This document shows, piece after piece, positions 16,935 to 53,880 of a DNA stretch of 64,000 nt. The notes under the pieces are model-generated. The model did not search any database. It saw nothing but the letters and a program-made list of their open reading frames with translations, and was not told the DNA's origin. Position numbers and translations under genes: made by a program. Origin of the DNA: Magnetococcales bacterium. Lineage in GTDB: Bacteria; Pseudomonadota; Magnetococcia; Magnetococcales; JADFZT01. Location of the stretch: the NCBI GenBank assembly GCA_015232395.1, contig JADFZT010000001.1, forward strand, positions 25,744 through 89,743. Direction: 5' to 3'. Position 1 is the stretch's first letter; every line of letters begins with the position of its first letter.

Positions 16935-17176
16935 TATAGCCATTCGAATCAAGAATTGGACATATGCCGTTGCACTTTTGCCGTCACTCCCGCGAATGCG
17001 GGAATCCAGGGGGGCTGGCACGGACCTTTCCAAATCTTGTTTCACTTTCAGCAAAATGCCGGCCTCTCTGAAGATTTGGCTTTTCCTTGAGGGCCATGAT
17101 TATCTCCCTGGATCCCCGCCTTCGCGGGGATGACGAATCAGGGAGGAGTGTCCAATTCTTAGGTAAGCCTGCTATA
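16935..17176. repeat. MITE-like element, copy A (242 bp)
   Basis: The element begins TATAGCCATTCGAATCAAG and ends with GCTATA. Read in reverse complement, the right end (TATAGCAGGCTTACCTAAG, then AATTGGACAC) matches the left end as an imperfect terminal inverted repeat of ~30 bp. Inside are two dRS3-like palindromes, TCCCGCGAATGCGGGA and ATCCCCGCCTTCGCGGGGAT. It encodes no protein. Near-identical copies lie at 40627-40869 and 53639-53880. The TATA ends suggest TA target duplication, as in Correia-like elements and Tc1/IS630-type MITEs (inference). Confidence 0.85.
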
Positions 17177-26701: not shown

Positions 26702-26955
26702 TATAGTCATTCCAGTTAAAAATGGCCCCATATTTTCTCTGACACGCCATTTCCGGGACAACGACTTTTGCCACAGAGGGCACAGAGAACACAGAGAAAT
26801 CAAAACATTTGAAAAACAGACTGTGCCCCTTTTCAAGTGAGGGTTTCCTGTTGCTTTTCCTCTGTGTTCTCTGTGCCCTCTGTGGCAAACCGTCCTTTTT
26901 TTAATGAGATGACTCTCTTCCGCTAAAACCTTTCAAAAGGTGCCATTCTTAAGTG
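26702..26955. repeat. dispersed repeat with perfect 30-bp inverted arms
   Basis: Starts TATAGTCATTCCAGTTAAAAATGG just after znuA. Perfect inverted arms of 30 bases lie at 26767-26796 and 26860-26889 (TTTGCCACAGAGGGCACAGA and its complement); each arm itself contains three CACAGAG units. A weaker outer pair is at 26712-26728 (CAGTTAAAAATGGCCCC) and 26939-26955. No protein is encoded. The left tip resembles that of the TATAGCC MITE. It may also end znuA and RND transcripts, which converge here. Confidence 0.7.
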
Positions 26956-39977: not shown

Positions 39978-40631
39978 ATGATGACATGGGGTGCGTGGTG
40001 GCACGAATCCGATCTGGTGGTGCAGGGGGTGTTGGTGGTTTTGGTGCTGGCCTCTCTCTCCAGCTGGTCGGTAATCCTCTATAAATGGTGGCAGCTGGCC
40101 AAAGCCCATGGGCTTGAAAAACGGCTCAACCAAGCTTTGAGCAAGCCGGAAACCGACCTTTCCCCGAGCCTTCTGGAGGGCCATTTTCTCTCCCTGACCC
40201 TCCACCCAAGCCGCTCCCCGCAAACCAATACCCGTCAAGCCCTGGAGGCAGACCTGGCCCAGGGGTTCATGGAGCGGCGGATCCATCTGGAAAATGGCCT
40301 GACCTGGCTCGCCACCATCGGCAGCTCCGCCCCCTTCATCGGCCTGTTCGGCACGGTTTGGGGCATCATGCACGCCCTTCAGGGGTTGGGTGGCGAAGCA
40401 GCAATCTCCATGGATCTGGTGGCGGGTCCGGTCTCTGAGGCGTTGGTGGCGACAGCGGTGGGGCTCTTTGCGGCGATTCCGGCGGTGATGGGCTATAACG
40501 CCCTGATTCGCCGCCTGCGCCGGGTGACAACCACCATGCAGGGCAATATTTTGCATGTGATCAATCGCTTGACCATGACCCAACCCAGGCCTCAACCCGC
40601 GTCGACTCCCCTGGAATCCACCCGGATATAG
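39978..40631 (+). CDS. exbB: ExbB proton channel subunit (MotA/TolQ/ExbB)
   Basis: 217 residues with three membrane helices: LVVLVLASLSSWSVILYKWW, TWLATIGSSAPFIGLFGTVW (family signature with GLFGTVWGIM) and LVATAVGLFAAIPAVMGYNA. Works with ExbD and TonB. The final codons are Arg-Ile-stop where the TAG is formed by the TATAGCC end of the MITE at 40627. The original C-terminus was therefore possibly longer, though the core fold is complete. Confidence 0.93.
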   Translation: MMTWGAWWHESDLVVQGVLVVLVLASLSSWSVILYKWWQLAKAHGLEKRLNQALSKPETDLSPSLLEGHFLSLTLHPSRSPQTNTRQALEADLAQGFMERRIHLENGLTWLATIGSSAPFIGLFGTVWGIMHALQGLGGEAAISMDLVAGPVSEALVATAVGLFAAIPAVMGYNALIRRLRRVTTTMQGNILHVINRLTMTQPRPQPASTPLESTRI

Positions 40632-40869
40632 CCATTCGAATCAAAAATTGGACATATGCCGTTGCACTTTTTTCGGTCATTCCCGCGAATGCGGGAATCC
40701 AGGGGGGCTGGCACGAAACCTTCCAAACCTTGCTTCACTTTCAACAAAATACCGACCTTGCTGAAGATTTGGTTTTTCCTTGAGGGTTATGATTATCTCT
40801 CTGGATCCCCGCCTTCGCGGGGATGACGAGTCAGAGAAGAGTGTCTAATTCTGAGGTAGGCCTACTATA
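40627..40869. repeat. MITE-like element, copy B (243 bp), between exbB and exbD
   Basis: Same element as at 16935: starts TATAGCCATTCGAATCAA, carries the two internal dRS3-like palindromes (TTCCCGCGAATGCGGGAA and ATCCCCGCCTTCGCGGGGAT), ends GGCCTACTATA. The exbB stop codon TAG (40629-40631) is inside its left tip, and the exbD ribosome site AGGAG lies just past its right end. The element splits what is usually a tight gene pair. Confidence 0.85.
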
Positions 40870-40886: not shown

Positions 40887-41303
40887 ATGGCTGGAAATTT
40901 ATTTGACGGGGGGGATGGGGATCAACCTCTGGCTGAGATCAATGTGACCCCCTTCGTGGATGTCATGCTGGTGCTGCTGGTAATTTTCATCATCGCCGCC
41001 CCCCTGATGGCCCAGGCGCTGAAAGTGGACCTGCCCCAGGTGAGCGCCCCCACCGATGGGGAGCCGTTGGTGGTTAATCTGGCCCTGTTTGCCGATGGTC
41101 GGCTGGAACTGGATGGCGAGTCCATCCCAGAGGCAGAGATTCGCCAGCGGCTGATCCAGCGGTTTACCCGGGAACCGGAAGCGGTCCTGCGTCTGGGAGG
41201 CAGTGCCCAAACCCCCTATCAGGAGATTGCCCGACTGCTCTCCACCGCTCAGCAGGTCGGTATCACCCGCATCGCCTTCGCCACCACCCCGCCCCGAGAG
41301 TAA
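40887..41303 (+). CDS. exbD: ExbD/TolR family proton channel subunit
   Basis: 138 residues. Starts with an acidic cytoplasmic tail, then EINVTPFVDVMLVLLVIFII with the conserved channel Asp, and a periplasmic domain ending in YQEIARLLSTAQQVGITRIA. The ATG has AGGAG at a proper distance. Completes the TonB-ExbB-ExbD motor. Separated from exbB by the 243-bp repeat, so the usual coupling is lost, though co-transcription through the repeat is possible. Confidence 0.93.
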   Translation: MAGNLFDGGDGDQPLAEINVTPFVDVMLVLLVIFIIAAPLMAQALKVDLPQVSAPTDGEPLVVNLALFADGRLELDGESIPEAEIRQRLIQRFTREPEAVLRLGGSAQTPYQEIARLLSTAQQVGITRIAFATTPPRE

Positions 41304-53638: not shown

Positions 53639-53880
53639 TATAACCATTCGAATCAAGAATTGGACACATGCCGTTGCACTTTTTTCGTCATTCCCGCGAA
53701 TGCGGGAATCCAGGGTGTCTGGCACAAACCTTTCCAAATCTTGTTTCACTTTCAGCAAAACAGCAGCCTTGCTGAAGATTTTGTTTTTCCTTGAGAGCCA
53801 TGATTATCTCTCTGGACCCCCGCCTTCGCGGGGATGACGAGTCAGAGAAGAGTGTCCAATTCTGAAGTAGACCTGCTATA
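53639..53880. repeat. MITE-like element, copy C (242 bp)
   Basis: Same length and layout as copy A; left tip TATAACCATTCGAATCAAG and right tip AGACCTGCTATA. It interrupts the ~38-base direct repeat noted in this region. Internal palindromes TTCCCGCGAATGCGGGAA and CCCCCGCCTTCGCGGGGA are intact. Confidence 0.85.

Follow-up and report, generated by a model that had tools for sequence, protein, structure and literature searches.

A probable TA-inserting MITE with paired CGTC-1 REPs in a Magnetococcales genome, and CRISPR-like expansions of its REPs

A 242-bp repeat of a Magnetococcales bacterium is very likely a TA-inserting MITE with a pair of CGTC-1 REPs inside, and these REPs have, we conclude, served as ectopic CRISPR repeats for integration of the Cas1-Cas2 type; we hold this explanation, taken as a whole, with considerable confidence. 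The repeat is a non-autonomous element, mobile to judge from its sequence. An IS630/Tc1-type transposase that we infer, and that would act in trans on the TATAGC... ends, would move it by cut and paste into TA sites, and the REP pair rides along with it. We propose that a Cas1-Cas2 integrase occasionally targets a REP because the palindrome resembles the type I-E CRISPR repeat, and that it would insert a 33-bp prespacer and duplicate the 28-bp palindrome, giving a 61-bp repeat-spacer-repeat unit. Repeat-insert-repeat geometry is present in three genomes, and in one of these a chromosomal source was found for two inserts. We read the expansions in CRISPR terms because of their fixed size, the exact duplication, the unrelated inserts, the two exact sources that have their flank in common, and the type I-E system of the source genome, which we infer to have made the expansions found there.

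MITE copies and insertion into TA sites

The whole stretch of DNA analyzed here, 64,000 nucleotides long and called the window below, holds three copies of the element, A, B and C (Table 1), which are alike far above chance expectation. An earlier note on this sequence had placed the three copies correctly and had given them equal length within one base (242, 243 and 242 bp). Each has imperfect inverted ends of about 28 bp, a left palindrome, about 100 bp of spacer and then an inverted right palindrome, with the consensus sequences GTCATTCCCGCGAATGCGGGAATCCAG for the left palindrome and, on its own strand, GTCATCCCCGCGAAGGCGGGGATCCAG for the right one. The earlier note had assigned conserved cores to two inner palindromes; both palindromes are present, but their cores differ, being TCCCGCGAATGCGGGA on the left, identical in A, B and C, and TCCCCGCGAAGGCGGGGA on the right (own strand; the last base is G in copy C). 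A separate inverted repeat was observed in the window at 26767-26889, with arms of 33 nt that are 97% complementary and 57 nt between them.

Table 1. MITE copies, their parts and the genes beside copy B (window positions; G000 is the source genome of the window)
Feature	Position	Strand	Remarks
MITE copy A	16935..17176	+	242 bp; genome search and alignment
Copy A left terminal inverted repeat	16935..16962	+	TATAGCCATTCGAATCAAGAATTGGACA
Copy A left CGTC-1 REP	16982..17008	+	G000:C1:42725-42751
Copy A right CGTC-1 REP, inverted	17109..17135	-	G000:C1:42852-42878
Copy A right terminal inverted repeat	17149..17176	-	sequence and alignment
MITE copy B	40627..40869	+	243 bp; separates an exbB/tolQ-like from an exbD/tolR-like gene
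Copy B left CGTC-1 REP	40675..40701	+	first base G, not C; G000:C1:66418-66444
Copy B right CGTC-1 REP	40802..40828	-	G000:C1:66545-66571
MITE copy C	53639..53880	+	242 bp; genome search
Copy C left CGTC-1 REP	53686..53712	+	G000:C1:79429-79455
Copy C right CGTC-1 REP	53813..53839	-	one base off; G000:C1:79556-79582
MotA/TolQ/ExbB-family gene	39978..40631	+	stop codon TAG falls in copy B end
ExbD/TolR-family gene	40887..41303	+	parted from partner gene by copy B

The source genome is a draft assembly of 4.94 Mb in 170 contigs. A genome-wide search with the element, as the earlier note had suggested, gave at least 49 matches to copy A, of which at least 41 span 207 bp or more with an identity of 86-100%; scoring covered 40 of the 146 first-look candidates. 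With up to 2 mismatches allowed, the end motif TATAGCNNNTCNANNYNANAATTGGACA is present 153 times, compared with no occurrence in the reversed control. The expectation that three copies in 64 kb imply many in the genome holds, but copies are concentrated on the contig of the window (C1, 177 kb), which carries 13 of the 24 that were detected in 765 kb. On this contig copies are also biased in orientation, 11 of 12 well-scoring ones being the same way round. An alignment of 30 copies with their flanks displays sharp TATAGC...GCTATA boundaries with no evident common sequence outside, and copies reach 98% identity to one another. Some copies are truncated where a contig stops, and there are short or diverged derivatives, among them one of about 110 bp with both ends and one degenerate palindrome (G000:C80:9995). 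The copies at G000:C1:116808 and C2:18403 are changed internally, not by REP expansion; the changes include a 22-bp unit three times over in the spacer.

Copy B offers an inferred empty site. The exbB-like gene now terminates at a TAG within the MITE end; with copy B removed and one TA left, its frame is restored and ends in a TGA overlapping the exbD start codon ATG, whereas a removal that left TATA or no TA did not restore it. The two closest relatives likewise show a stop/start overlap (TAATG in L147 and TAGTG in L148, at 60 and 62% identity), and in several more distant relatives exbD starts a few bases after the exbB stop. In G009, a genome of another family in the same order, an element is nested in an element; when one TA is counted as a duplication, the outer element can be joined up in register with related copies, leaving a single substitution at the insertion site. 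Because the TA junctions are sharp, the empty site at copy B can be reconstructed and the nested G009 copy closes in this way, we read the element as a TA-inserting transposon that probably duplicates the TA, which agrees with the non-autonomous, TA-choosing transposon of the earlier note. Terminal inverted repeats and, at the inferred sites, TA insertion with duplication are both found, as for an IS630/Tc1-type MITE; the missing enzyme aside, we regard the MITE reading as firm.

No transposase had been seen in the window, and indeed no IS630-type (DDE_3) transposase was found on its whole contig. An IS630/Tc1-type transposase with matching ends, which the earlier note had proposed to look for, was searched for in the source genome and did not turn up: five DDE_3 matches are present, on C59, C37 (two), C42 and C95, and none is flanked on both sides by MITE-like ends, although a collapsed copy could escape a draft assembly. 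The C59 match was considered as partner, as it has a TATAG start and 17 of 28 end bases in common with the MITE, and was rejected when its right end was not found. At another locus of the source genome (L032) a DDE_3 fragment adjoins half a MITE, and this candidate was set aside with no IS end recognizable at the joint. DDE_3 genes are also listed in seven relatives.

CGTC-1 REPs inside the MITE

Both inner palindromes match the description of CGTC-1 REPs, with a CGTC tag, an 8-bp stem, a 4-nt loop and a CCA tail; the left REP of copy A follows this plan with one base off. Since the Neisseria members of this family are the dRS3 elements, according to passages of Di Nocera et al. (2013, PMC3733652), the dRS3-like cores of the earlier note are well named. 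The same passages report CGTC REPs without a dedicated transposase or an association to transposase genes. The GTAG type of REP or REPIN with its RAYT was considered and rejected: the tag here is CGTC, and the Y1 gene of the genome has no REP within the 3.3 kb examined around it.

In the 765,426 bp of the source genome searched, 44 of the 45 REPs recognized at up to 2 mismatches fall within MITE copies, and 36 of the 45 have the end motif (up to 6 mismatches) on their outer side within 75 bp, compared with 9 of 3000 random places. The latter count is the more reliable of the two because the REP itself helps to make the profile hits by which a copy is defined. Of eight other REPs, four are the inner REPs of expanded copies. 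Nine seemingly lone REPs were checked, and end-like sequence was found beside all nine with up to 5 mismatches, the weakest cases being suggestive only. All 18 inverted neighboring REPs within 200 bp of each other in the source genome have CGTC outside. The interior of the MITE is an inverted CGTC-1 REP pair, and the REPs therefore travel with it; in the source genome REPs move as part of the MITE, as their co-location shows. What mobilizes CGTC REPs was left open in the passages of Di Nocera et al. (PMC3733652); here a TA-inserting MITE carries them.

CRISPR-like expansions of the REPs

Four copies in the source genome, all outside the window, have a REP directly repeated around an unrelated insert of 33-34 bp. 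Their periods are 61, 61, 61 and 62; the 62-bp unit is doubled, with nearly the same insert in both, and was probably copied by slippage. All five direct REP pairs found there stand at period 61 or 62 (allowed range 44-74). Four independent events at 61-62, which are all the independent events of this genome, would have a probability of about 2e-5 if periods were uniform, a value computed after the events had been seen. The copy on C27 has a duplicated block of exactly 28 bp around an insert of 33 bp. As none of copies A, B and C has an expansion, these structures are invisible from the window.

A complete type I-E cas operon (cas3, cse1, cse2, cas7, cas5e, cas6e, cas1e and cas2e) lies beside a CRISPR array at G000:C13:53001-72864 (L179). 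The array has at least 23 repeats and runs into the contig end, and all 22 intervals are 61 bp, the period seen in the expanded REPs. The right REP matches the CRISPR repeat at 17 of 29 positions, which 36 of 20,000 shuffles equaled, and the left REP at 15 positions, equaled by 259 of 20,000 shuffles.

Of 398 genomes surveyed, 26 had at least one REP pair within the allowed range, inverted pairs included, and the six with direct pairs among the matches listed were followed. In G067, 21 of 52 rows were set aside before counting where the insert holds another palindrome head, as in simple tandem arrays; 28 of the 31 distinct inserts have period 61, and among 29 events whose duplication was measured, 15 have one of exactly 28 bp. 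Two G067 events are near-copies of the adjoining unit. G067 is a REP-rich genome of 1.5 Mb.

G036 gave 35 distinct inserts from 39 rows, with 15 periods at 61, one at 62, 16 in the range 64-66, and single ones at 54, 68 and 69. In the stretches examined, the duplicated left flank is 1 base in 10 of 13 events of the 61-62 class and 3 bases in 9 of 11 of the 64-66 class, and whole duplications are mostly 28-32 bp in the former as against 31-33 bp in the latter. Duplications of about 28 and about 32 bp are expected of I-E and I-C type integrases, respectively, and the two sizes suggest two different integrases in G036. The 68-bp event appears to be a nested MITE and was excluded from the spacer count. 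The 75 distinct inserts are largely unrelated, with a 12-mer in common in three pairs. The target repeat is thus found duplicated around an insert of fixed length, as in Cas1-Cas2 integration. Cas1 (PF01867) was not detected in G036 (96% complete) or G067 (100%), which is the weak point of the CRISPR reading, and their events would then be fossils or the work of an enzyme now lost; it is possible that Cas1 was lost from both after the events.

Direct REP pairs occur elsewhere at other periods: four in G009, G028 and G379 (46, 67, 53 and 55), and seven stretches in IMG/VR that represent three distinct sequences (58, 66 and 72). Five viral contigs of IMG/VR have an identical sequence, with a REP pair at 58 bp and a longer duplicated block than the 61-bp class.

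A search of 771,394 bp of G036 found exact 33-nt chromosomal copies of two of the 35 inserts, with mismatches at both bounds. Both inserts belong to the 61-bp class, and both sources fall within long open frames; within the stretch examined, the closest REP is 1.8 kb away from one source and 16 kb from the other. Each source is followed by ATCC; read on the other strand, each starts with G behind GGAT. This is an ATG-type motif, which E. coli I-E accepts, and 2 of the 35 distinct inserts are thus copies of DNA beside a PAM-like motif. The same search gave no source for any of the 16 inserts of the 64-66 class; for the insert of the 54-bp class it gave one 22-nt match with 3 mismatches, and two further places proved to be MITE sequence. 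One match also came up in its shuffled control. The five inserts of the source genome had no source in 765 kb, and the 31 inserts of G067 had none at an unrelated place in 339 kb, where one listed place is a neighboring near-copy.

All 5 inserts of the source genome and 34 of 35 of G036 end in C, but only the C27 copy and the two G036 matches are informative on this point because the usual flank base is also C. In G067 the last base is A in 13, C in 7, G in 7 and T in 1 (n=28), so that the terminal G/C which a PAM-derived base should leave is lacking. Four inserts of the source genome had no exact-pattern match in IMG/VR, two of these four had no BLAST match among plasmids or phages, and two inserts of G067 and one of G036 had none among phages. 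The spacers of the source genome's own CRISPR array had no match in the sequence examined.

Alternative explanations, known systems and relatives

An ordinary MITE with a REP pair, whose direct REP duplications arose by replication slippage or repeat recombination without Cas proteins, is one alternative. It fits the failure to detect Cas1 in G036 and G067, the simple tandem arrays of REPs, at about 31-38 bp, that G067 has besides its 61-bp units, one 61-bp event of G036 that resembles a tandem duplication of MITE sequence, and the doubled unit of the source genome. We nevertheless regard it as unlikely, since inserts so largely unrelated, periods clustered at 61 and 64-66 with two distinct duplicated flanks, and two inserts of exactly 33 nt from distant sites with the same flanking bases all speak against it. 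The Cas1-Cas2 reading has evidence against it as well, including the failure to detect Cas1 in the two genomes with most events, the lack of a phage, plasmid or IMG/VR match for the few inserts compared, the insert ends of G067, the inserts left without a source, the event of G036 that resembles a tandem duplication and the two near-copies of G067, the small number of independent events in the source genome, REPs of G067 that are not known to lie in MITEs, and the other periods in IMG/VR, G009, G028 and G379.

The remaining alternatives concern the element itself. The repeats could be old fixed regulatory hairpins acting as RNA rather than mobile DNA; copy B folds as RNA into one long hairpin at -85.3 kcal/mol compared with a shuffle mean of -64.6 (z -4.6), and the REP palindromes are the best conserved part of the element (mean column identity in 30 copies 0.956 and 0.990, compared with 0.929 and 0.833 for the ends and 0.876 for the rest). 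Copy A likewise forms one long hairpin as DNA (z -4.9). Such an origin is very improbable given that TA junctions, the inferred empty site and the nested insertion indicate transposition, that copies are so nearly identical, and that in 99 other genomes there was no match to copy A better than E 1.5e-9, those listed being short and mostly palindrome. We also disfavor, and find scarcely credible, a REP-associated tyrosine (Y1, RAYT-like) transposase that moves and multiplies the REPs while the MITE ends are incidental: the source genome does have one Y1 transposase gene with a MITE end about 1.5 kb beyond it (C30:50290), but no REP lies in the 3.3 kb examined around that gene, CGTC REPs are reported without a transposase gene association in Table 1 of PMC3733652, and REPs in the source genome are almost always between TATAGC ends.

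Correia/NEMIS and Nezha are non-coding IS630/Tc1-type elements with TATAG-type inverted ends and a TA target. The MITE described here is also non-coding, with TATAG-type inverted ends and a TA target; it differs in its end sequence and in the REP pair inside, and no cognate transposase was found for it. The Correia-like ends of the earlier note would be a resemblance in the TATAG start only. Both are named as MITEs in the passages of PMC3733652. The REPs share with the CGTC-1 family of that source the CGTC tag, 8-bp stem, 4-nt loop, CCA tail and inverted dimers. Some REP dimers described there sit within longer palindromes (TATAGGA... in A. variabilis, 41-bp in H. neapolitanus), whereas the enclosing palindrome here is a TA-inserting MITE that holds almost all REPs examined; the passages of PMC3733652 on these REPs contain no description of CRISPR-like expansions. 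QMITE2 of Coxiella burnetii (PMC5896051) is also a MITE with a REP inside, but the passages on it give a GTAG REP and direct repeats of 7-11 bp and mention no spacer-like inserts.

Mobile repeats, these findings suggest, can seed new CRISPR-like sites. Away from CRISPR arrays, Nivala et al. reportedly described spacer-like inserts flanked by a duplicated target, and the expansions reported here are alike in all three respects; they differ in that the targets are dispersed REPs, struck many times within a genome, and that two duplication sizes occur in one genome. Non-canonical, off-target integration by Cas1-Cas2 is known from passages of PMC9456107 and PMC11788318 that cite Nivala et al. (2018). 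Our literature search found no published link of REPs or MITEs to spacer integration, and such a link is absent from the CRISPR and REP passages of a 2025 REP survey (PMC12306157) and a 2024 MITE review (PMC10969869). For the origin of orphan or new CRISPR arrays, a mobile and widely shared palindrome looks like the seed, and REP expansions may record CRISPR systems since lost from a lineage. More tentatively, and less likely than not, MITEs with CRISPR-repeat-like REPs might scatter potential arrays across a chromosome, into which CRISPR systems write spacers, self included, some of the mini-arrays yielding, once transcribed and processed, working guide RNAs, which would make them a route to new and orphan arrays as well as a fossil record of lost systems.

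Some match to copy A is present in 34 of 100 genomes, the source genome included. G009 has the same plan of end, REP, spacer, REP and end with different ends. At least three further MITE types were recognized by eye in G036; their inverted ends differ from type to type (TATACTGC..., TTAAACCGCACC... and GGCCTTGATCATCG...), and all of them enclose pairs of CGTC REPs. The relative G018 has 47 end-motif matches, and the one locus checked has paired ends with no REP found inside. Among named genomes, a set that perhaps does not include the source genome, the end motif had one match, in the alphaproteobacterial MAG contig JAGRKA010000006.1, where about one is expected by chance (an estimate). Just inside the end motif of this match lies a REP-like palindrome, GTCATCCC...GGGATCC.
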